46,905 bases of DNA, taken from the IMG/VR virus record IMGVR_UViG_3300031857_000342, positions 1 to 46,905 of that record. One strand, given 5' to 3'. The notes under the pieces were generated by a model that was not told where the DNA came from, searched no databases, and was given only the letters and a program-made list of their open reading frames with translations. The DNA is from a virus. Shown one piece after another: positions 3,520 through 44,180 of the stretch; the stretch's first letter is position 1; every line of letters starts with the position of its first letter. The position numbers were made by a program, and so were the translations under genes.

Positions 3520-3852
3520 TTATCTACTCCTATTGAACTCCGTCATTATTTCTGAAATACCCATAGCGTCTTCATATGGTATTCGTATTATTTCGCCAGG
3601 TGGAACATACATACTGCCTTTTCCTAAATTATTTGCTCTTGCAATAACATACCAAAGAGTTTCGTCTCCGTAAAATTCCTTTGCTAAAAGATCTAATCTA
3701 TCACCATCTTGTGATATTATTTGAGTATCATTATCAGTTAGAAATTCGGGATACATTATTGTTGATAAACGTCTCACGTGGTATTCTTTTCCCTGTGAAT
3801 CGATTTTCTTTATATTTTCCAATAATCTTGAATCTTGGTATCTCTTTACCAT
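3520..3852 (-). CDS. LysM-domain baseplate protein (gp53/gpX-like)
   Basis: A 110-residue protein. The C-terminal two thirds match a LysM-type fold: GDRLDLLAKEFYGDETLWYV (about residues 50-70), an ARANNL helix, then YVPPGEIIRIP. Such a domain occurs in T4 gp53 (baseplate wedge) and in the P2-type tail protein X, both small baseplate proteins. I chose ATG 3852 because AGGTG lies six bases upstream; a GTG at 3861 would extend the frame by three residues but overlaps that binding site. It sits between the giant repeat protein (24-base gap) and the hub-like gene (2-base gap), so all three are probably co-translated. Whether this LysM touches peptidoglycan or only neighbouring tail proteins cannot be told from sequence. 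Confidence 0.75.
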   Translation of the reverse strand: MVKRYQDSRLLENIKKIDSQGKEYHVRRLSTIMYPEFLTDNDTQIISQDGDRLDLLAKEFYGDETLWYVIARANNLGKGSMYVPPGEIIRIPYEDAMGISEIMTEFNRSR

Positions 3853-3875
3853 AAATATCACCTATAATTAAAATA

Positions 3876-6800
3876 TTACTTATTTGGATTTATTATGTAT
3901 GTCACATTATCCAATCCATCTTCACCTTTCTTTTTACCCGAAAATCCAGTGTTGACGTGTGTTTGTTTTCCTTTTGTATTCTTTATGTTGGTATCTCTAT
4001 TATATCTACGACGCCAAATATCTATTGGTGTATCACCACCCGAAATTGTTATCACAGGTTTTTCAGAAGTACCTTCCAATTGAAAATGCTGTTTAGCATC
4101 TAATAATGGATCGAACCAAACGTTATATGTTTGTTGAGCAACGCCTTGAGTCTCGTCTGGATTTTGTATTCTATATGATTTATGCCAAGCAAGTCTCTTT
4201 GTTAAATCGGCTGCAAACGGTAATTCTAATTTAGTTTTGGAGTTGAACGCCCCGATACTTAATCCTGGAGGACGTATTGGGCCAGTGCTCTTTGGCCATC
4301 CTGTGTATGTTTCACCGACACTCTTTCCACCCTCCTCTATAAATCTATTACCTGTGAAGTAATGTGGACCAACTCTCCAAAACTTAGTACCATCTTTTCT
4401 GTAACAGTATTCTGACTTATCGCATTCGGGTAGTTCTGGGTTACAGTCAAAACTTGGTTTATAGTTACAAGAATCAGCTCCTTCTATTATCTCAAATATA
4501 ACTCGTCTATTCTGTTGTTTTGCCCATCTATTTTTAGATTCTGGTTTGTATGCCTCTTTGTAATCACCAAATCCCATACCAACGGGAACCAATCTATTAG
4601 AAGCTATTCCACATTCTTCTATAAGCAAATTACATACCGTTACAGCTCTTGCCATAGATAACAATTTATTATAAGCAAAGTTATCAGCCTCTCTTGAACA
4701 ATACGCCTTTACATTGACACGTATATTCGGACATTCATTTAACCAATTTGCAACTTGAATTACTGCTCGTCTTGATTCGGGAGTTATTTCACGGTCCTCA
4801 TCAAAGCAAAAATCTATTTTGCAAATACAAATCTTCTCCGGCAAATTAGGAGGAGCGGTTGTAGGTGGTGGCGTTGTTGGTGGCGGTGTTGTTGGTGGTG
4901 GTGTTGTTGCTTCGCCTCCAGGTCCACCTGCTGTTATTGTTCTCTTTTTAGGAACTGGTGGAGGTGGTGGCGGTGGTATTACCGCACACAATAAAGCGTT
5001 CATAGGATGTGTAACTGGTAAATCATCATGTGTTCTGAAGTAATTAACACGGTCATCACTCCTTGGAACCAAACCTGTTTCAACGGATGTTCCACCCGTT
5101 GTATCATCGAATAATGAATAGAACACACAATCCCACTGTGGTCTGTATATGTTAAATGTCACAAATGTGCATTGAACTAAAATAGTTTTTGGCAATTCCA
5201 AAGCACCTGGTTTTGATAATGGTCCTATATTACGATCTGATATATTTAAATCTTCAGCTAATTTTGCAGTTTCCCACGTAGTCATTGTATTATCAAAAGT
5301 ATACGTCAGTGAACTTATAAATCCTGGGAATTTACGATAAAGATTACCGATGTTTAATCTACATATAGGTGCCTTCATAAATCCTGGATCTACATAGTCA
5401 GGTGTAGTCCATGAAGCAAGCATGTTTAATTTACGCCATGTTGCTTTTAATTCGTCACGAGTTCCTGTATGTACTGTGAATCCAAATGATATTTCTCTTT
5501 CGTAACTGTCATAAGAATAAACAGGATCGGCTCTACCAATATATTTAATTGGAGTCCACGTTGGTTTGTGGTTATCCAAAATAGTATCGATGTAAGCACG
5601 AAATACTATAGCTTCAGTTGGCTTATTTTCAGAAGCAATCAAATCTACACCTGAGAAGTAAAACTGTATTAGGTCTTGTGAACCTAACATTTGATTTCCA
5701 TACGGTGAAGTTTTTTCGTAAACATTATTAACATTTATATTCTGTTCAGACCGCTTCCAATCTATTATGTTTATTCTATCGCCTCTGAAGAAAGTTGCTG
5801 TTGGATTACCATTCTCTCTTTCAGCCTGTTCTCGTTTAAGTATTTCGGGTTTAGTATTTGGATATGCACCATATTTTCTATTAGCAGGCTGATTATTTTG
5901 TTTACTGCCACTCGCAAATGAGTCCGCAGCTGCACGTGAAAGACCCGAAGTATAATGTATATTGCTAATGTACGGTAAATTCTTTCTATATCCAGGAAGA
6001 CCTGGGTCACCGAATCCAGTACCATCGCCTCTTAATTCCACTCCATATTTTTTATAATTTACAACTCTTGGATCGGTTGAAAAATACTCAGTACCATCTA
6101 TTATCTTATCTCTAAAGTCAGTTGGTTGAGAAGCACTCCACCAAGCATTTGAACTCCGTGTCTCACCTAATTGACTATATCGTGTTGTTTTGTACTTTAA
6201 TAATGGATTTACATTTTTAGCAGATTCATCAATATCAGGTCCATTTGATAAAGATCTGTTACCCTCTCTAAAATTTTCACCCAAAGCACTTAAAGCACTG
6301 AACCTTTCATATGGATTTGGGTATTTAAAATCAAATGTTTTTAATGCTTTTAGTGTTTGTACAGTTTCACTGTTAATTGCTACTTCACTGAGTGGATATG
6401 CTTCATTTGCAGCTGTCCCATCGAAATTACCATTTACATAAGAATCCCAAGTTGGACCACCAACTATTATTGTAGACGCATTTCTTGGTGAAGACGCTGT
6501 TTTTCTTAAATTTAAAGTAGCAGCTGCTAACACTAACCCATATACTCTTGAATTTTTAGTAGCCCAATCGTCTTTTAATTTTGCACCATAACTTAGTTTG
6601 TCTACTGTTTTACCAACCAATACATCGTATTTTGATTTTGCACTTCCAAAATACATCTCACTATAAAGATTTTCACCTTCTCGGTAAGCATTTTCACTTG
6701 TTACAGCTTTATATCTACTGTTAACTGTTGGAGGTATAAATTCAAAGGGTTTTAATTTTTCAATAAGAGTTTTTGTTTTATCGTTTATAGGTATCTTATT

Positions 6801-9800
6801 GTATTCAGCTTCTATTACAACATCACCTTCAAATTTTCTATGTATACCCTCTAATTTTTGATTCAACGTTAATGAACCTAATATACCTAAAGAAAATTCA
6901 TTTTGATCCTGTGGGTTTAGTACAACTTGTTGAGTTTCTCCGTCAGGCAATCTACCCAACAAATAATCGCCATATGAGAATCTTGATATTAAATTTACAT
7001 CACTTCTTATTAAATTTGAGGTGAAAAAGGTTTCAGAAGCTAACTCCAACAAATCTTTTCTTGGTGTTATGTTCTCACTTATAACACGGCGTCCTCTTTC
7101 CTTTATTGGTATTTGTTTAAAACCAAAGACATCTAATTCTTCGATTCTACGTTTATCGTATTTGTTTAATGGTACTTTAAATTCTGTTTTGTCTATTATC
7201 TGTCTTCCATCTACAAATTTTGGCAGCAGTCCTGATGATACAATCCCAACGGTTGAACCTAACATAACACCATACGCATTTCCGTATTTTGTTGATTCAC
7301 CATCTGTTTCACCGAATAGTCTATCGTAATATGTTTTTTTATTTTTGGACCCTACAAAGAATATTTCGTCAAATATACTTTCATTTTTATCTCGGTATGG
7401 TATGTAACCACCGTTTATAGCTTTAAATCTCTCCGTTGTAGTTGGTTTTTTAAAATCAAAAACTTTAGATGCACCAATACGTTGTCTTGTTATTAACTGT
7501 ATTTTTGAATCCGCAGAATTTATTTTATTTTTTCTACTGTCAGAAAATGATGGTGTATAGAGTTGACTATCGGCTGTGGTGCTTGCATTCCGTGGTGATG
7601 GAGCTACTTGTGTTATAGAAAGCATAGCTGCATCTAAAATTAAACCATGCATATCACCGTCATATTTTTCAATTTGACGTAATAACATTTCAGAATATGT
7701 ATCAGTCTGACGGTTTCCACTGTCATATCTCGCTGAGAAAAATACTTCGCGGTCTAATCCTAAAGTTACATTTACTTGCTCTGGAATATAATTGGTTGAA
7801 TTTACAATCTTAAATGGATGAGTTGCTCTATTAATTGTTGTACCAAAAAATCCTAATAAAGATCCAGGCCCACCGTGTGACGATGATATTCTATTTATTT
7901 CTAACTGAGTATTTTGTTTTGGTAATGTGTTCTGTCTTATTGGATCGTATGAATTTGGCAATAACTCTTTAACCAAACCAATTAATCTATTATAGTTATT
8001 ATCAGCTGAATCTGAAAATTCATCAAAGTAACTGTACTTATCTGAATTCAAAGCTCTGTCTATAGCAACACGTTCATATCTACCGAACACACCATCCATC
8101 ATTATACCATGACGAGCGTATCTATTACCCAAAGGACCGACTTCTAAAACATTTCTAGGTATTGAAAGTGGATTGTAAAATTGACTTGGTGCCTTCGTTG
8201 ATATTATGCTTGGTAGATTTAAAAAACTATCAATTGGATTATTAGCAGTTGGTTTATCAACATTAGGATTCATAGCCTGAAGGCCTGATTGTTTTATGTT
8301 GAAAAGTATACCTCTACCCGACAATAGAAACTTACCGATTCGTACTGAATCTAATAAAGCACTTATTGTGTTGTTTACTATACCACCACGAACCAAACCA
8401 TCATCAAACGGGAACATAGAAACCGATTCAGGTCCATGTAATGAATCATCTACAAATGGTTGTCTTAATCCAAATATATCGGTATTATATGCCTCATCTC
8501 TTAATCTATATTTCTTTTGTAGTCTTTCTATTAATGTATCTGACTGATTTCCAGAAAACGGTACTTGTAGTGGTAATGAGTTACTATTAGCCCAACTTTC
8601 AATTGTTCCGTCAACGGTTGATGGTCTTATATCAACACCCCCACCTGAAGTATATCTCTTTGTAAATCCAGGAGCAGTTGGGTTTATTCTAACACGATTA
8701 GTTGCTACATTCAAGTTAAATTTTTGTAGTATTACCGCCGGTGTTTGGATGTCTAATGTTGACCTAAATCCGGATATAGTTTTTCCACCAAATGTAGCGG
8801 GTGCAAATTGTTCTAAGTTACTTGTTTGAAGTGGTTGTAATAATTGTCTAAATGTTGTCAAACCAAATCTTTGAGCTCGTTGTCCTACACCTTGAATACG
8901 AAGTATATTAGCATTAAATCTTGGATTTATTATTGGATAGGCTGTTCCATCGAATTGAGACATGTTCACCATGAATCCAAATCTTGTTGTGTTTGTGAAT
9001 CCAAAGAAATTAGTTGTTCTAATTGAATATGGATCTAAACCGTCCCAATCAAAATTAGTAGCACCTGGTGCTAAAAAGTTTACAGAACCACCCAAAACTG
9101 GATTAAATCCTACTGCCAATCTATAAGCGGTTGTTCCACCACTCAAGTCAGCAAATGTGTGGAATCCACGTGTGGTGCTTACATTGTTTAAATCAAAGAA
9201 ATTAACAGCAGGAGCATTATTACGCAAACCGTTCCAATCAAATGTAGTTGCACCTGGTGCTAAGAGGTTGTTACCTATTGTTCCAGTATTATACCGTGTA
9301 TTTTGACGTGTTGTTGCAAACGAATGGAATCCCGCTAATGTGTTTATATTATTTGGATCGAAGAAGTTAACGGTTGGAGCGTTCTGTCTTCCACCATTCC
9401 AATCCAAGAAAGAAGCATTATCTGTCAATCCAAATCCACCACCCTGCAATCTTCTTGTTTGGTATGATGTTGGTTCACCTGTTTGCGAAAATGTATGGAA
9501 TCCACGAGTTGTACTTCTGTTTGCTAAATCAAAGAAGTTAACCGCAGGAGCACCTGGTTGTTGTGCTGTATTTACTAAGAATGGGCTATCCCAATCAAAT
9601 GCTGAAGCAAATGGATCTAATACTGATGTCAGTCCAACTTGTGTAGTTCTATACGATGTGTCAAATGTTCTTGCAAAGGTATGGAATCCACGTGGAACAG
9701 CATACGATGGAAAGAAATCAACGGCTGGAGCAAATGTACTTGAACCGTTCCAATCAAATCTTGATGTATTTGCTCTCAGTGCTATTACATTTCCCGATTG

Positions 9801-12554
9801 AACAGTTGCAAAAGATGTAGGTTCAGCTTGCTGAGCAAAAGCATGGAACCCTCTCGTTGTTGGTCCAGCAGGCCAATTAGCAAAATAATTTACAGTTGGT
9901 GCGTTTTGTCTACCACCAGTCCAATCTAAAAATGAAGCATTTGGATCTAAACCAAATCCACCTTGTCCCAATCTTTGTATTCTATATGACGTTGGTTCAC
10001 CTGTTTGTGCAAATAGATGAAAACCACGAGTTGTACTTCTATTAGTTAAATCAAAGAAGTTAACAGCAGGAGCACCTGGTTGTTGTGGTGTATTTATTAA
10101 AAACGGACTATCCCAATCTAAAAACGAAGCAAATGGATCTAATACAGATGTTAAACCCAATTGTATATTTCTATATGACGTATCATATTCTCTTGCAAAT
10201 GTGTGGAATCCACGTGGAACAGCATAAGATGGAAAGAAATCAACGGCAGGAGCTGCGGCTCTTAGACCATCCCAATCTAAAAATGATGCACCCTGAATAT
10301 ACGAAGTTGGTTCCAATGTTGTTGAGAAAGTATGGAATCCTCTAAATGTATGTAGATTTGTTAAATCAAAGAAATTTACAGCAGGAGCATTTACACGTAT
10401 ACCGTTCCAATCAAATACAGTTGCGTTTGGTCTTAATGCTAATGTAGTTCCAATTGCATTTGTTTGATATGAAGTTGGTTCAAGAGTTTGTGCAAAGGTA
10501 TGAAAACCTCTAAATGTTCTAATATTATTTTGATCAAAGAAGTTTACAGCAGGAGCATTTACACGTACACCATTCCAATCAAATACCGTAGCATTTGTTC
10601 TAAGTGTAAACGCGGTTCCAACTCTAACATTTTGATATGAAGTTGGTTCTAATGTTGTTGCAAATGAATGGAAACCACGAAATGTTCTAAGATTATTTTG
10701 GTCAAAGAAATTAACAGTGGGTACATTATTCACAGTCCCATCCCAATCCAAGAATGAGGCGTTATTGGTGAGAACTAAAGAACTACCAATCAGTGATGTT
10801 TGATACGAAGTAGCTTCTCTTGTTGTTGCAAAAGCATGAAATCCACGAAATGTGCTTCTATTTGTTAAATCAAAAAAGTTAACGGTTGGAACTGTTAATC
10901 CATCCCAATCCAATAAAGAAGCGTTGTCTGTTAATACTAAAGAACTTCCTAACAGTCTTGTTTGATATGATGTTGGTTCTTTAGTTATTGCAAAATTGTG
11001 AAATCCTCTAAATGTACTTATGTTAGCAACATCGAAATAATTTGTAGATGGAGCACTACCACGTAAACCGTCCCAATCAAATCTAGAAGAACCAACTATG
11101 TATTTTGTATCATACTCTACTGCAAAGTTGTGAAATCCATCTGTTGTATATCTATTGGTTAGGTCAAAATAATTTACCGATGGTGACTGTGTTCTAACAC
11201 CATCCCAATCGAAAATACTCGACTCTACTTTATACTTGGTGGCCTCACCTGTTTGTGCAAACGAATGAAATCCACTTCTTGTATAGGTTCTATTTGTATC
11301 AAAGTAATCCGATAGTGGTACATTTTTATCCCAATCAAACTCAGAAGCACCATCTTTAAATTTCGTGTCTTCACGTGTCTGTGCAAATGCGTGGAATCCT
11401 TCAGTTGTAAATCTATTTGTTATATCAAAGTAATTTGCTTCAGTTACACCGTCAAATCCTAAAACCGAAGAATCCAAATCGTATTCGGTTACACCCGATT
11501 GGACTTTGTTAGTGAACCCTTCTGCATTTGTGTTGGGAAAGAAGTCTATTTCTTGGCCATTTTTATTTGACAGTTCCGTGTTTCTATCTGTGTTATGTCT
11601 TCCACTTGGGTTTGTTTCGCTAACGTCATCCAAGTTTAGATTACTTGGCGCACCCAATATATCGGATACCTGATCGTATCGTGTTGTGTCAATAGTTGCA
11701 CGTTGTTTCAATACTAATTTGGAATCTGTGTTGTATCTTGATGGTGTACCAACAATATCAAATTGTGTATCATCTACTAAATTATTTGTCTCTAAATTAA
11801 CAATAGAACCATTTAAATCATTGTAGGTGTTTATTGATGGCGATTGATTTTGTCTATCTACCGTTTGAACAACTTTGTTTACAGGTGTTCCAGGATCTGT
11901 TATATTGTCTGTTGTTGTTCTTAAATCTTTTATTATTACAGCAGACTGTGCTTCTCTATTTATGAATAATGGTGTCCTATTTATTACAACGTTTGGATCA
12001 CGTACATTACCACGTTGATTGTCACTCTTTATTATATCAACATTAGACCTTGTGTTGTTTTCACCAGCGGTTGTTGATTTCAAAACCACAACATCTGATT
12101 TTGTTATGTTTGTCTGAGATATATCTTGATTTATTTTTGCTAATTCGGATGTAACATCTTCCGTTGTTATTCTATTGAATTGGTTTGTAACATCGTCTTT
12201 TGCCTGTGGTGATAATGATGAAACAGCATTAATAAGAATATTTCTATTTTGTGGTTTTTGTATATCATCCAATCTTGTATTTTCTAAACGTTGAACCAAT
12301 TGTGATTCACGCATATCAGTAACTATATTATCCAAACGGGTGTCATCTAACTTCCCAATCAAATCAACTTCCTTTGGTTGAACGACTTTTGGTAAATTAC
12401 CCGATTTTATAAACGTATTGGATATTGGTTGAAACGAACCAAAGTTATCGCCATAACTCGTTGCCCTAGGTGTTTTCGAGCTTGGATCTACGGGGGCACC
12501 TGGACCTTTCCAACGGTATTTTGATAAATCTGATTTTAAGTCTAACAATGACAT
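3876..12554 (-). CDS. Giant 2892-residue repeat-rich tail/baseplate protein with OmpA-like domain
   Basis: Start ATG 12554 has AGGA about nine bases upstream. Parts in order: a low-complexity N-terminus rich in Asn, Asp and Thr (1-335); about 16 repeats of roughly 45-60 residues with FDWDG, NFFDLTN and RGFHTFA signatures (about 337-1206); a region with about four looser copies of a 120-150-residue unit (about 1470-2150, with SPRNAST motifs); a conserved tail-type domain (about 2260-2485, including YSYDSYEREISFGFTV and APICRLNIGNLYRKFPGF); a Pro/Thr linker (about 2523-2573); an OmpA C-terminal-like domain (about 2575-2695, with NKLLSMARA and NRRVIFEI); and a 195-residue tail. The position between tape measure and LysM protein argues for a baseplate or tail-tip component. 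The OmpA fold usually binds peptidoglycan, but the usual DAP-contacting Asp seems replaced while the Arg of LSxxRA is kept. The overall role is inferred. Confidence 0.8.
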   Translation of the reverse strand: MSLLDLKSDLSKYRWKGPGAPVDPSSKTPRATSYGDNFGSFQPISNTFIKSGNLPKVVQPKEVDLIGKLDDTRLDNIVTDMRESQLVQRLENTRLDDIQKPQNRNILINAVSSLSPQAKDDVTNQFNRITTEDVTSELAKINQDISQTNITKSDVVVLKSTTAGENNTRSNVDIIKSDNQRGNVRDPNVVINRTPLFINREAQSAVIIKDLRTTTDNITDPGTPVNKVVQTVDRQNQSPSINTYNDLNGSIVNLETNNLVDDTQFDIVGTPSRYNTDSKLVLKQRATIDTTRYDQVSDILGAPSNLNLDDVSETNPSGRHNTDRNTELSNKNGQEIDFFPNTNAEGFTNKVQSGVTEYDLDSSVLGFDGVTEANYFDITNRFTTEGFHAFAQTREDTKFKDGASEFDWDKNVPLSDYFDTNRTYTRSGFHSFAQTGEATKYKVESSIFDWDGVRTQSPSVNYFDLTNRYTTDGFHNFAVEYDTKYIVGSSRFDWDGLRGSAPSTNYFDVANISTFRGFHNFAITKEPTSYQTRLLGSSLVLTDNASLLDWDGLTVPTVNFFDLTNRSTFRGFHAFATTREATSYQTSLIGSSLVLTNNASFLDWDGTVNNVPTVNFFDQNNLRTFRGFHSFATTLEPTSYQNVRVGTAFTLRTNATVFDWNGVRVNAPAVNFFDQNNIRTFRGFHTFAQTLEPTSYQTNAIGTTLALRPNATVFDWNGIRVNAPAVNFFDLTNLHTFRGFHTFSTTLEPTSYIQGASFLDWDGLRAAAPAVDFFPSYAVPRGFHTFAREYDTSYRNIQLGLTSVLDPFASFLDWDSPFLINTPQQPGAPAVNFFDLTNRSTTRGFHLFAQTGEPTSYRIQRLGQGGFGLDPNASFLDWTGGRQNAPTVNYFANWPAGPTTRGFHAFAQQAEPTSFATVQSGNVIALRANTSRFDWNGSSTFAPAVDFFPSYAVPRGFHTFARTFDTSYRTTQVGLTSVLDPFASAFDWDSPFLVNTAQQPGAPAVNFFDLANRSTTRGFHTFSQTGEPTSYQTRRLQGGGFGLTDNASFLDWNGGRQNAPTVNFFDPNNINTLAGFHSFATTRQNTRYNTGTIGNNLLAPGATTFDWNGLRNNAPAVNFFDLNNVSTTRGFHTFADLSGGTTAYRLAVGFNPVLGGSVNFLAPGATNFDWDGLDPYSIRTTNFFGFTNTTRFGFMVNMSQFDGTAYPIINPRFNANILRIQGVGQRAQRFGLTTFRQLLQPLQTSNLEQFAPATFGGKTISGFRSTLDIQTPAVILQKFNLNVATNRVRINPTAPGFTKRYTSGGGVDIRPSTVDGTIESWANSNSLPLQVPFSGNQSDTLIERLQKKYRLRDEAYNTDIFGLRQPFVDDSLHGPESVSMFPFDDGLVRGGIVNNTISALLDSVRIGKFLLSGRGILFNIKQSGLQAMNPNVDKPTANNPIDSFLNLPSIISTKAPSQFYNPLSIPRNVLEVGPLGNRYARHGIMMDGVFGRYERVAIDRALNSDKYSYFDEFSDSADNNYNRLIGLVKELLPNSYDPIRQNTLPKQNTQLEINRISSSHGGPGSLLGFFGTTINRATHPFKIVNSTNYIPEQVNVTLGLDREVFFSARYDSGNRQTDTYSEMLLRQIEKYDGDMHGLILDAAMLSITQVAPSPRNASTTADSQLYTPSFSDSRKNKINSADSKIQLITRQRIGASKVFDFKKPTTTERFKAINGGYIPYRDKNESIFDEIFFVGSKNKKTYYDRLFGETDGESTKYGNAYGVMLGSTVGIVSSGLLPKFVDGRQIIDKTEFKVPLNKYDKRRIEELDVFGFKQIPIKERGRRVISENITPRKDLLELASETFFTSNLIRSDVNLISRFSYGDYLLGRLPDGETQQVVLNPQDQNEFSLGILGSLTLNQKLEGIHRKFEGDVVIEAEYNKIPINDKTKTLIEKLKPFEFIPPTVNSRYKAVTSENAYREGENLYSEMYFGSAKSKYDVLVGKTVDKLSYGAKLKDDWATKNSRVYGLVLAAATLNLRKTASSPRNASTIIVGGPTWDSYVNGNFDGTAANEAYPLSEVAINSETVQTLKALKTFDFKYPNPYERFSALSALGENFREGNRSLSNGPDIDESAKNVNPLLKYKTTRYSQLGETRSSNAWWSASQPTDFRDKIIDGTEYFSTDPRVVNYKKYGVELRGDGTGFGDPGLPGYRKNLPYISNIHYTSGLSRAAADSFASGSKQNNQPANRKYGAYPNTKPEILKREQAERENGNPTATFFRGDRINIIDWKRSEQNINVNNVYEKTSPYGNQMLGSQDLIQFYFSGVDLIASENKPTEAIVFRAYIDTILDNHKPTWTPIKYIGRADPVYSYDSYEREISFGFTVHTGTRDELKATWRKLNMLASWTTPDYVDPGFMKAPICRLNIGNLYRKFPGFISSLTYTFDNTMTTWETAKLAEDLNISDRNIGPLSKPGALELPKTILVQCTFVTFNIYRPQWDCVFYSLFDDTTGGTSVETGLVPRSDDRVNYFRTHDDLPVTHPMNALLCAVIPPPPPPPVPKKRTITAGGPGGEATTPPPTTPPPTTPPPTTAPPNLPEKICICKIDFCFDEDREITPESRRAVIQVANWLNECPNIRVNVKAYCSREADNFAYNKLLSMARAVTVCNLLIEECGIASNRLVPVGMGFGDYKEAYKPESKNRWAKQQNRRVIFEIIEGADSCNYKPSFDCNPELPECDKSEYCYRKDGTKFWRVGPHYFTGNRFIEEGGKSVGETYTGWPKSTGPIRPPGLSIGAFNSKTKLELPFAADLTKRLAWHKSYRIQNPDETQGVAQQTYNVWFDPLLDAKQHFQLEGTSEKPVITISGGDTPIDIWRRRYNRDTNIKNTKGKQTHVNTGFSGKKKGEDGLDNVTYIINPNK
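4838..4985 (-). repeat. Pro/Thr-rich linker, PPPTT repeats
   Basis: Near-perfect copies of TPPPT, preceded by a run of prolines (PPPPPPPVP), lie directly before the OmpA-like domain. They probably form an extended flexible tether holding that domain away from the conserved tail domain. Confidence 0.75.
8935..11545 (-). repeat. About 16 tandem GFH/FDWDG protein repeats
   Basis: Fifteen copies of GFHxF(A/S), plus a final degenerate FGFMVN copy, recur every 45-60 codons, each preceded by (F/L)DW(D/N)G and NFFD motifs. A larger unit is also duplicated: the pair containing DFFPSYAVPRGFHTFA and LTSVLDPFAS occurs once around 10080-10260 and again around 9570-9740. Protein identity between units is high but the DNA has drifted, so these are old repeats kept by selection rather than recent copies. 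Confidence 0.9.
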
Positions 12555-12593: not shown

Positions 12594-15500
12594 TTATTTT
12601 ATGAATCTACCACGTGCAGAGTCAATATTACCATCAACATCACTAATTCTACCCAATTGTACTTTAACTTCTTCCACAAACTTTTCACCGAATCTAATTT
12701 GAGCGGTTTGTGTTGATTGACTTGACAATATTTTTATTATAGTATCCAACTTCTTTTCCATCTCTTTTGTTGATGGGTTTGTGGTTTGCGTCTGCGTATA
12801 TTGTTGCTGTTGTGCTTGTCCAGGACTTGAAGCAACAGAAAAACTTCTTTGTGGTGATGTCATTTTTGTAGACTTCTGTTGTGAACCACCTGATAAAAAT
12901 GATGTTGCACTGTTCCAAAGATTCGATATTCCTGACTTAAAATCACCCCATATACTTGTTCCACCCGGTCGTATTGGTGTTGTGTTTTGTGTTTTACTAA
13001 CAACCATGTTTAATTTATTAGTATTGAAGTTACCCATTGCACCATTCAACTCACGAATAGCTTGTGTCAACATTCTTATACTATTTGCAACCGCTTGTAT
13101 TCTTCCTGGGTCTGCAACATGCACTATTTCCATAAACTCAGCAAACTTAGAACCTGAACTGCCGAAGATACCCGATGACATTTTTCCTAAACTCCAAGCT
13201 ATACTCGCCATTGCCTCTGCAATCTTTACTATATTACCTGGATTTGATTTTACTAACTCTATTACTTTATCCAACACACGAATAAATGCACCCGCTAATG
13301 TGTCTATAGCAGACTTTACGGACTCTATTACAGCTACTATTGAATCTTTTATTACATAAATAACTTCATTTACTTTTGTTAAAGCCTTTTCTATTACAGC
13401 AGTTATACCACCAAATATGGAATCAAAAACAACTTTGAAAGCTTGCCCAACCGAATTTAATAGAGCTACAATAGCATCTCTGAATATTGGTATTAATGTT
13501 TCAGCTGCTTGTTGTATTTTGCTTATTATTTTTACCATATTGTCACCGATAGCAGTTAAAACGTTTACTACTAAAATACCAACTTGTTTTACGGCTTCTA
13601 TTAGAAAGTCTGCAAGTAGTTTAACTAAATTGTATACTAAATCTTGCATCTGTTTAAAATGTTGTAATATAAGTTTACCAAGTTCTAATAAGAAGTCAAA
13701 TACAGGTTTTAATTTATCAGCAACTTCTGCCAATGCAAGCATAGCACCAACCAATAGTCTAAACGAAGCTACTATAATGACTATGCCAAGAATAATTTGT
13801 GGGAATTGACCTGTTAACGCACCTAATCCTACTAACCCACCTAGCATAACACCCATTATTATTCCCACATTTTTAAGATTGTCAGCATTTACTTTTGCTA
13901 ATCTTTCAAAAGAATCAGTTAGAAAATACATTGCACCAGCTAAAACACCAGCACCGACTGCCATTTTAAATAATCCACCCATACCTATAAATTTGGTTAG
14001 TATCAAGGCAGAAACTACGCCCAAAACTTTTCCCCAATTATCAAATAGCCAAGTTACTACTCCTAACTTTTCTTCTATTCCAGCTAATGTCTCTTTTAAT
14101 CCTTTTAACGATATATTTATTTTATCCAAACCTAAAGAATTTGCAAACTCTTTTATTGCAGGATCATTGAATATTTCTTTAAATAACGCACCCAAACCGA
14201 AATCTACCCCTGAAAATAGATCCTTAAACGATATTTTACCAGATAGAAAATCATCTAAATTCTTTACGAATTTCTCAACAGCATTATTCATAAACTGCAT
14301 TATTTTATCGAATATTGGGCTATTCAATAATCTATCCAATATCTTATGTATAAGATCCAATATTCTACTAGCCGCTGGTGCAAACTGCATTTTCATTTTT
14401 TCTATTTTATCATTTATTTTCGTCATAATCTCAGCGTGTTTTTTTTCATTTGCAATATTGTCTATGAAGTTTGCACGGTTAATATTACCAGCTTTCCTTT
14501 CTTGTTCAGCTATAGCACGTAGTTCTTTTTCATTTTTAGCTTGGAGTCTTGCAGCCTTTTCAAAGGACAATCCTAATTTTTTAAGCATTTCACCACGTGT
14601 TAACATTTCAATCATTTCTTCCCGTGACATTTCAAACTGTCCAGCAAATGCCTTTTGACCGATAACACCACCACGAAGACCCTTAAATTGATCTACCGTT
14701 CCAATATTTTTCATAATAAGATCAAACATCTTATCGGTTTCACCATAAAGAGCAGCCGCTCTTATTTTGTCCATGTCACCTATATGAATGCCCGTTATCG
14801 CGGTGGATTCAAATTGTTTTCCCAATGAAGATTCAATATCCAACATAGAATCTTGCATTTGTTGTATCTTACCAAAATCAACCCCCATTAATTTTGCTTT
14901 AGCTGCAAAGGCAGCTAATCCCGCTAAACCGGTCTTTATATTTAATTGCATTATCTTGGGAACATTTGCCATGGCTTTTAATGCCTGTTGAGTTTGCATT
15001 ATACCACCACTCATCTTGTCAGTAACCTGTGCTAACTTGTCCATACTTGTCCCGGTTAACACACTAAACTCAAATAAGTTTTTAGCTTCGTCATTTGTTA
15101 ATTGAAACTGTTCCCGTAAGGTTGTCATATTTTTTATTATACCAATTTGTGCATCACCACCCATTAGTGTCTCAACACCAAGTCCATATGTATCTGCTAA
15201 AAATGAAGTTGTTTCCCTATATTGTTCTGAATTTTGTCCTATGATGTTTGCTGATAATGCCATTTTTGCAAATGACTTTTCCATATCAAATGCCATTTTT
15301 CTATTAACACCAAAAATCCTACTTGTTTCAGCTGCCCTTTTATCCAAATCCATAACAGAATCGTAAAAAATAGAAAATATTTTACTGACAAAATCCCATA
15401 CCGCTGAGAATACTGTTTTTATTCCGTTCTTTATTTTATCAACCGCCCACTCCATTGCACCACGTATTTTATTTGCAATGGTATCTACCCAACCACCAAC

Positions 15501-16484
15501 TTTACTCGCACCTCGTTCCATTGCCCTATTGAATCTATCACCCATTGATGTGCCCATTTTATCAGCATTACTTTCCATAGATTTAACATCCGATGGACTT
15601 GAGGCAGAAGCAGTATCTTTTTTATTTTTAGCAACAATTTTTGATTGATCTTTTAATGCATTATTAACTTTTGTTATTCGTTTAAACTGTCCTTCAAATG
15701 AATCAGTTGTTTTCTTTAATGCCATGTAGCGTTCAACGCCCAATTTATTAGCATTCAAATCTAATTGAGCCATTGCCATTTTAAGATTTCTTTCTGTTTC
15801 ATACAAGTCTAACGATTTAGATTGACCATCAACAGAATTTTGCATGTTTTCAGCGATACGTCCTTCCAAAGCATCCATCTCTTTTGCGATGTTCATAACA
15901 GATGTCATTGATTTTTCAAATGATTTATTTATTTGAGCTGAATCTGTTATTTGTATGTTTGCATCTTTTATTTCTTCCGCTAATGTTTTTGCATTTGAAG
16001 CAGTCAATCCTAAACTCGTTGCCTGTTTTTGAGCTTCTTCACTCAATGAACGCATTAATACTTGAGCCCTTTCTTGTAAGTCTCCGATTTCTTCATGGTG
16101 TTCTTGAATACTTTTTATTCTTTTTTCTTCTTCCTTTTGACGTTTTTGTTTATCTATCTCTAATTTTTCTATCTTAACAAGTTCTTCACGTTCATCTTTT
16201 CGTATCTTTGCTATCTTCTCTAATAAATCAAAATATTCTTTAGTAAGTTTAACGCGTTTTCCCTCAAACCGATTAATCTTATCAATCTGTTCAGCATCAT
16301 TTTTATCTTCAGTAAATATCTGTTTTTTTAATGCAAGTATTTCAGTTTCTAATTCTTTTCTGCGTTTTAATAGGTCTAACAATTTACTTTGTCTGTCACC
16401 GTTTTCAGCATTTTCATTAGAACCACTTTGTTTTTGTTGGGTGGGTTTTGGGGCTGGTCTACCTGTATTTTTCTTTTTTGCCAT
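12594..16484 (-). CDS. Tape measure protein
   Basis: A 1296-residue protein, probably setting tail length and passed toward the cell envelope during ejection. The N-terminus is Lys/Asn/Gln-rich, followed by long charged coiled coils (about 20-140 and 240-290), amphipathic segments around 330-380, then strongly hydrophobic stretches (about 820-960, for example IILGIVIIVASFRLLVGAML) and further helices to about 1110. The C-terminus has a low-complexity Ser/Gln/Thr segment and a short helix. Size, hydrophobic centre and position after the tail chaperone-like genes and before the baseplate genes fit a tape measure. The ATG has GGTG eight bases upstream. A hairpin terminator (16514-16545) and an ATATTTAT motif lie just upstream, suggesting its own transcript. 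Confidence 0.85.
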   Translation of the reverse strand: MAKKKNTGRPAPKPTQQKQSGSNENAENGDRQSKLLDLLKRRKELETEILALKKQIFTEDKNDAEQIDKINRFEGKRVKLTKEYFDLLEKIAKIRKDEREELVKIEKLEIDKQKRQKEEEKRIKSIQEHHEEIGDLQERAQVLMRSLSEEAQKQATSLGLTASNAKTLAEEIKDANIQITDSAQINKSFEKSMTSVMNIAKEMDALEGRIAENMQNSVDGQSKSLDLYETERNLKMAMAQLDLNANKLGVERYMALKKTTDSFEGQFKRITKVNNALKDQSKIVAKNKKDTASASSPSDVKSMESNADKMGTSMGDRFNRAMERGASKVGGWVDTIANKIRGAMEWAVDKIKNGIKTVFSAVWDFVSKIFSIFYDSVMDLDKRAAETSRIFGVNRKMAFDMEKSFAKMALSANIIGQNSEQYRETTSFLADTYGLGVETLMGGDAQIGIIKNMTTLREQFQLTNDEAKNLFEFSVLTGTSMDKLAQVTDKMSGGIMQTQQALKAMANVPKIMQLNIKTGLAGLAAFAAKAKLMGVDFGKIQQMQDSMLDIESSLGKQFESTAITGIHIGDMDKIRAAALYGETDKMFDLIMKNIGTVDQFKGLRGGVIGQKAFAGQFEMSREEMIEMLTRGEMLKKLGLSFEKAARLQAKNEKELRAIAEQERKAGNINRANFIDNIANEKKHAEIMTKINDKIEKMKMQFAPAASRILDLIHKILDRLLNSPIFDKIMQFMNNAVEKFVKNLDDFLSGKISFKDLFSGVDFGLGALFKEIFNDPAIKEFANSLGLDKINISLKGLKETLAGIEEKLGVVTWLFDNWGKVLGVVSALILTKFIGMGGLFKMAVGAGVLAGAMYFLTDSFERLAKVNADNLKNVGIIMGVMLGGLVGLGALTGQFPQIILGIVIIVASFRLLVGAMLALAEVADKLKPVFDFLLELGKLILQHFKQMQDLVYNLVKLLADFLIEAVKQVGILVVNVLTAIGDNMVKIISKIQQAAETLIPIFRDAIVALLNSVGQAFKVVFDSIFGGITAVIEKALTKVNEVIYVIKDSIVAVIESVKSAIDTLAGAFIRVLDKVIELVKSNPGNIVKIAEAMASIAWSLGKMSSGIFGSSGSKFAEFMEIVHVADPGRIQAVANSIRMLTQAIRELNGAMGNFNTNKLNMVVSKTQNTTPIRPGGTSIWGDFKSGISNLWNSATSFLSGGSQQKSTKMTSPQRSFSVASSPGQAQQQQYTQTQTTNPSTKEMEKKLDTIIKILSSQSTQTAQIRFGEKFVEEVKVQLGRISDVDGNIDSARGRFIK

Positions 16485-16560: not shown

Positions 16561-16824
16561 TTATTTTGAGTATAATGATCCAACATTTTGCACATTTGGT
16601 TGATGTACAGCTGATGATGAATTACCTTTCGATGCGTCTTCATACTGTTTATTCTGTCTTTCAATTGCCTCACTCGTTTCTTTTATGTAGAATCTACGTA
16701 GATGAATTGGCATTGAATATGTTTCACTCCAAGTAAAAGCACCTTCAGAATAATAACACAGTGAGAATAATTCTCTATGAAGACCTAATTTATACTCAGG
16801 AGTTAGGCCAAAAAAAGGAGACAT
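16561..16824 (-). CDS. gp51-like tail assembly protein, probable frameshift product of the upstream gene
   Basis: An 87-codon frame with a conserved-looking core LHRELFSLCYYSEGAFTW, then YSMPIHLRRFYIKE and a charged tail. Short proteins of this type follow the gp26-like gene in T4-like phages (gp51, hub assembly). The frame overlaps the end of the gp26-like gene by 29 bases in the +1 (equally -2) frame, across a run of seven T. Its own ATG at 16824 has no well-placed Shine-Dalgarno: the nearest GGAG is about 16 bases away and inside a hairpin. Translation by ribosomal frameshifting from the upstream gene therefore seems more likely than independent initiation, as in the G/GT tail chaperones of other phages. 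Separate weak initiation remains possible. Confidence 0.65.
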   Translation of the reverse strand: MSPFFGLTPEYKLGLHRELFSLCYYSEGAFTWSETYSMPIHLRRFYIKETSEAIERQNKQYEDASKGNSSSAVHQPNVQNVGSLYSK

Positions 16825-17668
16825 CCATCGGGATGTCCAACTCCTTTACGTCACCAGTGGCTTCTGATATGAATGTGAATGTCATATCTAAGTCTGGAGA
16901 TATTGTTTTGATGTATGTGCGGAGTGCTCTTGAATCTACAGCAAATAATTCATTATCAACGAAATTATTTACAACAGCACGACCTGTTTCACCATCAATG
17001 CCAATAATAATATGTTTGAGTCTTGTTGTTAATTCCCTATCAATACCTGTTTTTATTATAGTCTTATTACTCGCTTTAATTTCAGTTTCTATTTGTTTTT
17101 CTAAAGCATGAGTCATAAGTCTAAATGTTACTACTCGTTTTGAATTTGGAAGTTCAAAGTCAAATTCGTTCTTTCTGTTCTCAAATAAGCTGTAATCGAC
17201 CTCCTTGTGCTCGATTTGAGATAAATCTATTGTTACTTTTTGTTTAGTTCCTGGAGAAAATGGATCTTCCAATTCAACGGTATAGTCATTACCATATCCT
17301 AATAGACGAGCTGCAACCATTATAGCGTTCTTATCACCGCTATAAATATCATTGTAATTAACGGGTGTAACAATCAAAGACTCAAACAATTTATCTAACA
17401 CAACACCCTGCTTGATTAGATTTTGGGATGTTAAAATATCTTCTTCTTTAGCAGTCATGTATTTCATTTCAATGAAACCATCTGCTAAAGGATGTCCTTC
17501 GGGGTATAATAGTCCACGTGATGGTAGTGGCACAACTTCTGTTGGGAAATTACTCTTTTTTACTTCCGTTTGTTTAAATTCCGACAGTAATCGCTCTTTT
17601 ATTTCGGCATCACTCATTTCGGCATTCAAAGTTTCGGGAATGTTGTAAGCATTTGGTACTTTTGACAT
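16796..17668 (-). CDS. T4 gp26-like baseplate/tail assembly protein
   Basis: A 290-residue protein of the T4 baseplate-hub assembly type (family including gp26). Signature segments are EVVPLPSRGLLYPEGHPL (about residues 44-61), IEMKYMTAKEEDIL (67-80) and KQGVVLDKLFESLI (86-99), followed by a beta-rich middle and a C-terminal half ending DVSFFWPNS. The ATG has AGGA eight bases upstream. It precedes the gp51-like frame and the tape measure, the position held by tail assembly chaperones in other tailed phages, so it may be the upstream half of a frameshift pair. The last codons contain a hairpin and a T7 run. Confidence 0.75.
   Translation of the reverse strand: MSKVPNAYNIPETLNAEMSDAEIKERLLSEFKQTEVKKSNFPTEVVPLPSRGLLYPEGHPLADGFIEMKYMTAKEEDILTSQNLIKQGVVLDKLFESLIVTPVNYNDIYSGDKNAIMVAARLLGYGNDYTVELEDPFSPGTKQKVTIDLSQIEHKEVDYSLFENRKNEFDFELPNSKRVVTFRLMTHALEKQIETEIKASNKTIIKTGIDRELTTRLKHIIIGIDGETGRAVVNNFVDNELFAVDSRALRTYIKTISPDLDMTFTFISEATGDVKELDIPMDVSFFWPNS
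16814..16847 (-). other. Hairpin plus T7 run at the gp26-like/gp51-like junction
   Basis: On the coding strand a 7-bp stem (GACATCC/GGATGTC, loop CGAT) is extended by AAAGGA pairing with TCCTTT across a four-base bulge, and runs into seven T. In the gp26-like frame these read TTT TTT TGG; a one-base forward slip reads TTT GGC into the gp51-like frame. The element could promote frameshifting or act as an attenuator, since hairpin plus T run also looks like an intrinsic terminator. Confidence 0.5.
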
Positions 17669-17735: not shown

Positions 17736-18707
17736 CTAATTTTTGTTCGCTAAATACCATTCAACTGTTGATCTAAGACCGTTTTCAAAGGATATTTTCG
17801 GTCTCCAACCCAATTCACTCTCAGCTTTACTTGAATCTATCGCATATCTTCGGTCATGCCCTAATCTATCATCGACATATTCTATTAAGTTATCGGATTT
17901 GTCCAATATCATTAGTAATTTTTTAACTATTGTTATATTATCAATCTCATTATTTGATCCAATATTATAAACTTCACCATTTACACCACGCTCGTATGCT
18001 AACCAAACAGCATGACAGTGATCGTCAACATGAATCCAATCCCTAACATTCAAACCATCACCATATACTGGCAATTTTGCATCGTCAAGTGCATTTAATA
18101 TCATAAGTGGTATTAATTTCTCTGGAAATTGACGTGGACCGTAGTTGTTTGAACAACGTGTAATAACTGTTGGTACACCGTATGTGTGATAAAAAGACCT
18201 AACAAACCCATCGGCAGCTGCCTTTGCAGCTGAGTATGGTGAATTTGGTAAGATTTGTGAATTTTCTGTAAACTTATCGTTTGAGTTTAGTTCTAATGAA
18301 CCATATACTTCATCGGTAGACACCTGAACAAACTTTTTTAGTTTAAGTTTTTTAGCAACATTCAGTAAGGATAGTGTTCCTGTAACGTTTGTTATCAAGA
18401 ACGGTTTAAAATCTTCTATTGATCGGTCTACATGTGATTCGGCTGCAAAGTTGATTATTCCTTCGACATCATGTGCTTTACATATCTTTTCCACAAATTC
18501 TTCATCCTCAATTCTACCGTGATAAAATTTATAAAATTTATCACCAATAAATTCTTGTAGATTTTCTTCTTTTGCAGCGTATGTTAATGCGTCTAAATTG
18601 ATTATTTGGATATTGTTGTTTTCTCTTTTAAGCAATTTATGTATAAAATTACTTCCTATAAAACCACAACCCCCGGTAACGAGTATTGTTCTTATTGTAG
18701 ATTCCAT
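17736..18707 (-). CDS. rmlB: dTDP-glucose 4,6-dehydratase (RmlB-type SDR enzyme)
   Basis: A 323-residue extended short-chain dehydrogenase. NAD-binding TGGCGFIG is at residues 11-18, the RmlB-specific catalytic STDEVYG at 130-136, and the YxxxK pair at Tyr158/Lys162 (SPYSAAKAAADG). NNYGPRQFPEKLIPL and GDGLNVRDWIHVDDH are further RmlB signatures. The enzyme converts dTDP-glucose to dTDP-4-keto-6-deoxyglucose, precursor of rhamnose and other deoxysugars. All key residues are present, so it should be active. It interrupts the tail genes between tube and gp26-like protein, begins four bases after the T-run of a terminator, and is one of the few genes here without a visible Shine-Dalgarno. It may supply sugars for fibre or surface glycosylation together with the glycosyltransferase at 41997-42992 (inference). 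Confidence 0.9.
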   Translation of the reverse strand: MESTIRTILVTGGCGFIGSNFIHKLLKRENNNIQIINLDALTYAAKEENLQEFIGDKFYKFYHGRIEDEEFVEKICKAHDVEGIINFAAESHVDRSIEDFKPFLITNVTGTLSLLNVAKKLKLKKFVQVSTDEVYGSLELNSNDKFTENSQILPNSPYSAAKAAADGFVRSFYHTYGVPTVITRCSNNYGPRQFPEKLIPLMILNALDDAKLPVYGDGLNVRDWIHVDDHCHAVWLAYERGVNGEVYNIGSNNEIDNITIVKKLLMILDKSDNLIEYVDDRLGHDRRYAIDSSKAESELGWRPKISFENGLRSTVEWYLANKN

Positions 18708-18812: not shown

Positions 18813-19301
18813 TTAGTATTGGAGTATCGCATAATCGTATGCTAATGTGAGAGAAATCTCAACGAAAGCATCATTTGCCCAATCCATTTCACCAAAAGTG
18901 GTTGCAATAATAAATGCACCCTTCAATGTCCATTCTTCAACTTTATCACCTACAGGACCAAGTGTAAAGAATGTAATATCCTTTTTGTAGAAATCGGAAT
19001 AACCATCACGTCCCGTCACAGATTCGTGTGAAAGACGTACCCATTCCATTACCGCTTGAGCACCCGAAGGCACTACAGGATCGTATAGTTTAATGGTTAG
19101 ATCCTGCCATTCCCCTTTACCTTTAACTTTACGATATACGTTGATGTGATCTAACTTGATTGGATTAAAGTTAATGTTTGGTCTTCCCGCACCCTTAACT
19201 AACCAAGAAGGAACGCCCTCAATGTACATAATAAATCGGTTTTGGAGTTTTGGCTCAAATGGGGTAAAAAATATCTCATTAGAATTAAGTAATTCAGCCA
19301 T
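18813..19301 (-). CDS. gp19: Tail tube protein (gp19-like)
   Basis: A 162-residue protein, the size of T4 gp19 (163). It has the pattern of T4-type tube subunits: NRFIMYIEGVPSWLVKGAGR near residues 21-40, a central beta-rich part (LTIKLYDPVVPSGAQAVMEW), and a C-terminal KGAFIIATTFGEMDWAND followed by a strand ending LTLAYDYA. Subunits form stacked hexameric rings as the inner conduit for DNA. The ATG has GGAG six bases upstream. It follows the sheath gene, as in T4, separated by a terminator-like hairpin and an ATATTTAT motif, so it may be transcribed separately to reach high copy number. Confidence 0.92.
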   Translation of the reverse strand: MAELLNSNEIFFTPFEPKLQNRFIMYIEGVPSWLVKGAGRPNINFNPIKLDHINVYRKVKGKGEWQDLTIKLYDPVVPSGAQAVMEWVRLSHESVTGRDGYSDFYKKDITFFTLGPVGDKVEEWTLKGAFIIATTFGEMDWANDAFVEISLTLAYDYAILQY

Positions 19302-43013: not shown

Positions 43014-44180
43014 TTAAGAACGTATAGCGTGCATATGATTTCTGCCTGCCATTATTTTAAGCCACGATGTTGAACTACCAACCTGCACAGGACTAGATCT
43101 AGTTGTTGTGTTGCCTAAACCCAATTCTCCGTTAAAGTTTGCTCCCCATGTCCAAATCGTTCCATCCGTCTTTATTGCGATTGAGCATCCACTTCCGGCG
43201 TCTACATTTGCCCAATTGGTAGCTCCAAATGGTCCACCAACTTGAACAGGAGAAGTTCTTTGTGTAGACGTACCATCACCAAGAGCACCATTATTATATC
43301 CCCACGACCAAAGTGTTCCATCGGTTTTTACGGAAAGAGAATGACAAAAATTTGTTTGACCCTGTGAAGCTGCAACATATTTCCAATTAGTTAATGATCC
43401 TACTTGAACTGGACTGGATCTATCTGTGGTGTTGCCACTACCTAAATTACCATTTGGATTATCGCCCCATGTCCAAAGAGTCCCATTTGTTTTTACTGCG
43501 AGTGTAAAATAATTACCACCCGCTATTTCAGCCCAATCAGTTAATAATCCAACTTGTCTTGGTGATAGAACACCACTACCACCAGTTCCAGATGATATTC
43601 CATGTCCAGTTTCACCAGCGGTATTTGCGCCCCATGCCCAAAGTGTTCCATCTGTTTTTATTGCAAGAGAGTGGTTTGCACCAGCAGAAATTTTTGCCCA
43701 ATTTGTGTGTGATCCAACTTGAACTGGAGATAATGTAGTCGATGTATTACCTATGCCTAATTCACCATTTCCGTTATATCCCCAAGACCATAATGTGCCA
43801 TCAGTTTTTATTGCTAATGTGTGATTATTTCCCGTTGATACTTTACTCCAATTAGTTAATGTACCAACTTGAGTCGGGGAATATCTTACTGAAGTATCAC
43901 CTAACCCTAACTCACCATATGTATTATCACCCCAAGACCATAATGTTCCATCATTTCTAATACCCAAACTATGAATATCTCCCGATGTAATTTCAGTCCA
44001 AATTGCTGTTGATCCAACTTGAACTGGACTGGATCTATACGATGTGTCTGACAGACCTAATGCACCCGTATCATTTCTCCCCCATGAAAAAAGATTATAT
44101 CCAGGTGGTGGTGGGGGTGGTTCATATCCACCATAGCCCGATTGTAAAGCGGCTGCAAATATTAAATTATTACTTATCAT
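43014..44180 (-). CDS. RCC1-type seven-bladed beta-propeller protein
   Basis: A 388-residue protein with seven RCC1-like repeats of about 50 residues, each with LWSWGxNxxGELG, then SPVQVGS, a W, and HSLAIKTDGT. The N-terminus (MISNNLIFAAALQSGYGG) has a short hydrophobic part and then a PPPPPP linker. Repeats occur at intervals of about 150 bases from 44110 to 43030. RCC1-like propellers near collagen-like fibres are seen in other environmental phages and could be receptor-binding heads. The ATG has GAGG eight bases upstream, 21 bases after the fibre stop. Confidence 0.85.
   Translation of the reverse strand: MISNNLIFAAALQSGYGGYEPPPPPPGYNLFSWGRNDTGALGLSDTSYRSSPVQVGSTAIWTEITSGDIHSLGIRNDGTLWSWGDNTYGELGLGDTSVRYSPTQVGTLTNWSKVSTGNNHTLAIKTDGTLWSWGYNGNGELGIGNTSTTLSPVQVGSHTNWAKISAGANHSLAIKTDGTLWAWGANTAGETGHGISSGTGGSGVLSPRQVGLLTDWAEIAGGNYFTLAVKTNGTLWTWGDNPNGNLGSGNTTDRSSPVQVGSLTNWKYVAASQGQTNFCHSLSVKTDGTLWSWGYNNGALGDGTSTQRTSPVQVGGPFGATNWANVDAGSGCSIAIKTDGTIWTWGANFNGELGLGNTTTRSSPVQVGSSTSWLKIMAGRNHMHAIRS

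Follow-up and report, generated by a model that had tools for sequence, protein, structure and literature searches.

The window analysed here, a stretch of 46,905 bases (IMG/VR virus record IMGVR_UViG_3300031857_000342, probably a fragment), encodes a giant modular tail protein whose N-terminal arm appears to be matched to tail length. Across the family, the number of units in this arm predicts the length of the tape-measure protein (TMP) encoded by the adjacent gene, including that of TMPs outside the fit; TMP length serves throughout as a proxy for tail length. With moderate confidence, the giant is best explained as the tube initiator of a contractile-tailed phage, equipped with a TMP-matched N-terminal arm and an exchangeable, outward-facing OmpA-like module. 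An earlier note was right to read it as a modular tail protein that contains an OmpA fold, with the DAP-binding Asp altered. The term "baseplate protein" used there can be sharpened, judging by the predicted fold, to tail-tube initiator, and the match between the arm and the tape measure is a feature absent from that reading.

Modular layout and neighboring genes

The giant gene (3876-12554) is a single unbroken frame of 2892 residues, as the earlier note had it, and lies on the minus strand; an identical protein is encoded by a second contig (L004). From the N-terminus, the protein comprises a lead (residues 1-345, positions 11520-12554), an array of 44-residue repeats (residues 346-1190, 8985-11519), larger degenerate repeats of about 130 residues (residues ~1620-2110, 6225-7697), a conserved core domain (residues 2240-2530, 4965-5837), a Pro/Thr-rich tether (residues 2531-2577, 4824-4964), an OmpA-like domain (residues 2578-2690, 4485-4823), and a C-terminal region (residues 2691-2892, 3879-4484), all on the minus strand. 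The composition of the tether (36% Pro, 21% Thr) agrees with its earlier description, and the C-terminal region contains a WxVGPxxxT motif common to all six OmpA-bearing members of the family.

The repeat HMM counts 16 units in the array, in line with the first estimate of about 16 short repeats, and has no match in 68 shuffled proteins (a previous repeat model built from nine units was too narrow and was discarded). The units follow the pattern GFHxFA...FDWDG...VNYFD; several contain inserts of 10-18 residues, and large inserts extend the repeats of the relative L006 to 70-72 residues. Repeat number varies from 9 to 22 across the 66 giants with an intact start. In the family, the lead consists of units of ~16-18 or 34 residues, as indicated by autocorrelation (z 32 at lag 34, z 15 at lag 16) and by indels of 16, 20, and 31-32 residues between several relatives; in the window alone this periodicity is weak (the best of 77 lags is 33, z 3.1). 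The larger repeats described in the earlier note hold in part: among ten segment pairs picked by eye within residues 1560-2240, four exceed all 300 shuffles and a further one is equalled by 1 of 300, while the remaining five lie within chance, and a plain self-BLAST at E 1e-3 finds no such repeats. The predicted structure of six 44-residue repeats (297 residues, 70-row alignment) is poor (pLDDT 58, pTM 0.21); a fold search with this model gives nothing better than E 9.6, and a PDB profile search with the repeats has a best E of 0.086.

In the sense direction, the giant is preceded by genes for the tail sheath (19392-21848), the tail tube (18813-19301), a nucleotide-sugar epimerase/GDP-mannose dehydratase-like protein (17736-18707), a T4_baseplate/hub-type protein (16796-17668), and the TMP (12594-16484, 1296 residues; PHROG tail length tape measure, E 9.9e-13), and is followed by a small baseplate protein (3520-3861), all on the minus strand. 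Sheath, tube, and hub-type proteins are assigned by Pfam/PHROG profile matches, and the order TMP, giant, small protein is the same in L004-L008 and in Microcystis phage Mel-JY01. The small protein matches the PHROG family "baseplate wedge subunit" (E 7.6e-11), which supports the baseplate half of the earlier claim of a LysM baseplate neighbor; the LysM half finds no Pfam LysM match at E 0.1, and the match to Pfam Phage_tail_X (E 0.033) is below the cut-off. Together with the PHROG match, the relation of gp53 to LysM-type proteins suggests a product of the gp53/LysM type. Baseplate_J (PF04865) has no match in the window.

Three further features of the window deserve mention. The epimerase-like gene sits between the tail tube and hub-type genes; a similar ORF occupies this position in the relatives L005 and L006, and none does in Mel-JY01. 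A gene for an RCC1-repeat-like protein (43014-44180, minus strand; PHROG regulator of chromosome condensation) adjoins a tail-fibre-like gene. The sheath protein, with 818 residues, matches a 496-position sheath profile nearly end to end, and its excess over the profile probably reflects an extra domain.

Core domain and tail-tube initiators

The core domain is the marker of the family and occurs at 66 loci in viral contigs (one scan, duplicates included); a scan of genome contigs gave 60 pattern matches, none of which was confirmed. Mel-JY01 encodes a homolog (WWT39329.1, 2255 residues, core 55%) with 22 repeats by the same HMM and a similar gene order; unlike the window, it has no OmpA match in its record, and no epimerase gene follows its tube gene. 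Distant core homologs, with 28-33% core identity, are present in Flavobacterium phage immuto (immuto26A_236), the huge phage LR756508, and Rhodothermus phage RM378. The gene for immuto26A_236 comes soon after that of the annotated tape measure and is followed by one for a small protein. In immuto and LR756508 the N-terminal region differs from that of the giant; read by eye, the N-terminal repeat of the LR756508 protein (L003, 5795-10534) is acidic and quite unlike that of the giant, which suggests that repeat arms at this place arose with different units.

A structure model of residues 2240-2892, built from 41 aligned sequences, predicts a tail-tube-like β-barrel fold for the core, which was folded as part of this stretch with moderate confidence (10-residue pLDDT means of 53-83 over model residues 21-230, 55.5 for the whole model). 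With this model, Foldseek retrieves baseplate chains of the PVC, AFP, PlPVC1, Anabaena, Streptomyces, and Algoriphagus injection systems (E 8.6e-6 to 1.8e-4, probability 1.00, 180-201 columns, rmsd 5.0-5.8, TM-score by target 0.42-0.50); the match to a cyanophage tube cap is looser (rmsd 19). Because the column count (180-201) fits the length of the core, we infer that the injection-system match falls on this domain. The matched chains are probably tube initiators: they are 223-232 residues long, a chain label in 9qgl reads "7A", and the published description of Alg5/Alg7 points the same way. PDB profile searches with the core return no chain, and sequence similarity to solved chains was not found in them; the VIA-align PDB list is filled by the OmpA domain and carries nothing on the core.

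In the Algoriphagus system, Alg5 and Alg7 are described as the tube initiator, with an outward C-terminal LysM on Alg7 (PMC8894135), and in T4, gp48 and gp54 are described as the platform for tube growth and gp29 as the tape (PMC3004832). The giant is like Alg5/Alg7 and gp48/gp54 in that its predicted fold matches baseplate chains of six injection systems, and its gene, as in Alg5/Alg7-type loci, is set beside a tape measure and a small baseplate protein. It differs from the injection-system chains (223-232 residues) in the more than 2200 residues that precede the core, and from Alg7 in that the LysM-type part, built into that protein, would here be a separate neighbor gene. The conserved phage tail domain of the earlier note thus corresponds to a core resembling injection-system baseplate chains by predicted fold, and on this model a tail-tube initiator is the best reading of the giant.

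The OmpA-like module as an exchangeable C-terminus

The OmpA-like domain matches Pfam PF00691 over residues 2588-2674 (35.7 bits, cut-off 27.2). Its model, with pLDDT block means of 69-94 and one loop at 43-56, aligns with 4g4v at Z 13.3 (rmsd 2.2 over 110 residues) and with 3td5 at Z 12.1; the 50 PDB entries listed, including Pal, OmpA, MotB, and TagL domains, range over Z 10.2-13.4. Both the profile score and the model therefore bear out the OmpA fold proposed in the earlier note. DAP contacts named for TagL include Asp486, Asn494, Leu497, and Arg501 (PMC8253398). Their counterparts in the window are Ser2620 (for Asp), Asn2629, Leu2632, and Arg2636, with the loop to the Asn one residue longer than in TagL. 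The change of the DAP-binding Asp, also anticipated earlier, extends to all six distinct OmpA-bearing members (window included), five of which have Ser and one Asn at this position, whereas the Asn, Leu, and Arg (N54, L57, and R61 of A5) are invariant in all six. The module thus shares with OmpA-like/Pal/MotB/TagL domains the Pfam family, the fold, and the DAP-site Asn/Leu/Arg, and differs from the cellular domains in its place on a phage tail protein and in the replacement of Asp by Ser or Asn.

In Acinetobacter baumannii OmpA, D271 and R286 are reported as critical for DAP binding (PMC6572160), and by analogy it is quite possible that DAP binding is reduced or altered in the phage module. 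The invariance of three of the four TagL-named contacts favors some peptidoglycan binding, the loss of the Asp in all six members indicates that the ligand of the predicted DAP site may differ, and gripping of the cell wall by the module, which would fit the anatomy of the protein, is plausible. A domain without peptidoglycan binding, capping the tail in a structural or protein-binding role, is a possible but less probable alternative. It would accommodate the replaced key Asp as well as the Peptidase_S74 domains or short/low-complexity tails found at this site in other phages of the family, but not readily the conservation of the Asn, Leu, and Arg across six domains so diverged that the others are 34-55% identical to that of the window; besides, the cellular OmpA-like domain FopA1 (6u83) also aligns a Ser at the Asp position.

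OmpA matches over the cut-off are found in 6 of 22 and 0 of 35 records (6 of 57), in open frames of 1726-3142 residues from records that may be fragments, and nowhere in the Mel-JY01, immuto, or LR756508 records. The OmpA-bearing members form one clade (support 100/100, 6 of 50 tree rows), which fits a single gain of the module. Other giant homologs end in a Peptidase_S74 chaperone (L035 and L061 by Pfam, L067 by similar sequence), which has no match in the window giant, or in short or low-complexity tails. As OmpA, S74, and short tails alternate at the C-terminus, the site is an exchangeable one, and the OmpA module is an optional attachment of one clade, not what the giant is for. The presence of Peptidase_S74 on a tube-initiator-type protein is itself unexpected, this being an unusual place for a tail-spike chaperone.

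Searched with tblastn against phages, the OmpA region of the window has no match, and among the other OmpA domains, that of L013 matches seven records and that of L012 two (including Acinetobacter, Salmonella, and Pseudomonas Y1). The Pseudomonas Y1 domain was rejected as a tail precedent: it adjoins an ATPase-like gene, none of six scanned ORFs matches a tail family, and the record is marked "unverified". A Pfam "WDGH" score in Mel-JY01 was likewise disregarded, as no stretch passes alone. The photosystem family PF00124 has no match over the cut-off in 17 related records (one weak sub-threshold match) and so provides no host signal. A literature search for OmpA domains on phage baseplates or tails, with preprints and most subscription papers outside its scope, found only T6SS work.

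Arm length, tape-measure length, and a possible mechanism

The relation between arm and tape was fitted on 45 distinct giants with a complete TMP, out of 66 with repeat counts; duplicates and giants without a complete TMP in the set (including the OmpA-bearing L012 and L013) were left out. In a first set of 30, TMP length correlates with repeat count (Spearman 0.80), array length (0.69), and length of the whole giant (0.69). At n=45, repeat count gives a Spearman coefficient of 0.85 and a contrast r of 0.55, which is reached by 35 of 10000 sign flips and falls to 0.26 without the four largest contrasts and to 0.37 without six. Contrast r is 0.58 for the count by a second HMM, 0.41 for array length, 0.48 for the lead, and 0.42 for the whole giant; combined measures reach 0.61 (lead + raw array), 0.79 (lead + 44*count), and 0.91 (lead + 20*count; 0.61 without the eight largest contrasts). 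The mid region gives 0.02, the tail 0.12, and the inserts -0.04.

Contrast regression assigns 1.07 ± 0.09 TMP residues to each lead residue and 18.3 ± 1.4 to each repeat; inserted residues are without effect (-0.04 ± 0.06) and that of the mid region is small (0.10 ± 0.04, t 2.7). Taken with the lead periods of 34/16 and the indels of 16, 20, and 31-32 residues, these values imply that a ~17-residue unit and a 44-residue repeat each correspond to ~18 TMP residues. With U = lead/17 + repeats, TMP length is 18.3*U + 551 (r 0.954, residual sd 24, n=45), and the contrast r is 0.91 and 0.93 on two trees; the divisor 17 was picked after seeing the regression and before the test on TMPs outside the fit. 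The match concerns one part of the tape: for the TMP part up to window residue 640, r is 0.19 and 0.30, and for the rest 0.81 and 0.91. The length of the downstream gene does not track the TMP (r -0.27, n=41, uncorrected). The TMP has heptads and no 18-residue period; the repeats of the giant are not coiled-coil-like in appearance. An equivalence of one repeat per tube ring was rejected, as 18 TMP residues (~27 Å) fall short of the ~40 Å per ring that we estimate from a tail described as 1045 Å long with 24 rings (PMC10966104).

Pairs of relatives illustrate the equivalence of short and long units. Between L041 and L051, the lead loses 31+16 residues, the array gains 88+41, and the TMP changes by -1; the same short-for-long swap occurs in L021/L024 and L025/L027, with a net TMP change within 7 residues in all three. 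Among 18 hand-picked pairs, 12 obey the formula within 12 TMP residues and six are off by 16-43, namely L061/L070 and L063/L064 (TMP +23 without a change in units), L019/L048 (43), and L053/L057, L023/L025, and L005/L004 (16-18).

The formula and the criteria were fixed before new TMPs were scanned for. The 166 loci with a TMP comprise 82 in the fit, 34 with a cut TMP, 12 where no giant was found, and 38 candidates; exclusion of four candidates with cut arrays (prediction errors of +76 and +238 in two of them) and removal of duplicates leave nine TMPs. The first scan yielded five new phages (r 0.981), and all three scans together nine distinct TMPs outside the fit, predicted with r 0.981 and an rmse of 17 residues; taking the training mean as the prediction gives an rmse of 95, and taking the nearest training TMP gives 68. 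For the seven that share less than 80% identity with every TMP of the fit, the rmse is 17.5, and one TMP longer than any in the fit (1556 residues) was predicted at 1516. These nine amount to about five independent cases: L121, L132, L136, and L139 have the same lead and count and are not four independent tests, the TMP of L213 is a near-copy (99.8%) of one in the fit from a contig already met, and in L169 the giant had already been seen and its TMP is outside the fit.

Like tape-measure proteins, the giant varies in length with the presumed tail length; unlike them, it is an adjacent protein whose unit number tracks the TMP. How the two are matched can be read in several ways. Tentatively, they could be two matched rulers, the TMP being paired unit for unit with the arm of the initiator, while the free end of this protein carries the exchangeable, putatively wall-gripping module. 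An arm outside the tube, either between tube and sheath or along the sheath, acting as a cord or latch that spans part of the tail without setting its length, seems doubtful. The correlation requires merely a shared axial length, and six copies of the 70-72 residue repeats of L006 would probably crowd the lumen; however, the length match with the C-terminal and not the N-terminal part of the TMP points to pairing with the TMP. Rather unlikely is an arm that serves as a built-in chaperone or sleeve, keeps the unassembled TMP soluble, and is later displaced or cleaved, in which case it would be matched to the tape without being a ruler. One unit per roughly constant TMP stretch, the adjacency of the two genes, and the similarity of the aromatic-rich repeats to linear binding motifs would suit such a role, against which stands the separate hub-type protein encoded between tube and TMP. 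That the co-variation arose from common ancestry or exchange of the two adjoining genes is very improbable: the genes are neighbors, many records are close relatives, and weak correlations with TMP length are seen for the mid and tail regions before kinship correction (Spearman 0.37 and 0.42), but contrasts on both trees keep r at 0.91-0.93 while mid and tail lose theirs, the downstream gene does not follow the TMP, short units are traded for long ones in three pairs whose TMP length hardly changes, and the seven TMPs below 80% identity are predicted far more closely than a nearest neighbor predicts the whole set of nine.

As the tail-tube initiator of a contractile-tailed phage, the giant would contribute its core (residues 2240-2530), together with the small baseplate protein, to a ring where the tail tube starts, i.e., at the place of Alg5/Alg7 in the injection system and of gp48/gp54 in T4, to which the predicted fold and the gene order point. 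Six copies would encircle the start of the tube, and their arms of short units and 44-residue repeats might extend upward along the tail next to the TMP's C-terminal half, each unit, short or long, spanning ~18 TMP residues (~27 Å if helical). Arm and tape would in this way stay matched in length, as their statistical relation suggests. At the opposite end, the Pro/Thr tether would hold the exchangeable, outward-facing C-terminal module. The OmpA-like domain, whose fold and residues indicate a modified amine pocket, would most likely grip peptidoglycan stems once the tip of the tube has entered the periplasm.

The usual account of tail length invokes the tape measure alone. On the relation of repeat number or an initiator extension to tail length, a literature search with preprints and most subscription papers outside its scope found a review and a hot-spring survey. 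As the unit count of a second protein predicts left-out TMP lengths to ~17 residues rms, co-measurement becomes directly testable. If the reading of two matched rulers is true, each 16-20 residue motif or 44-residue repeat represents a fixed axial step of ~18 TMP residues, and one molecule links the cell wall, the start of the tube, and length control. The OmpA module would be a phage counterpart of T6SS wall anchoring by an OmpA-like domain, placed on the injected side.
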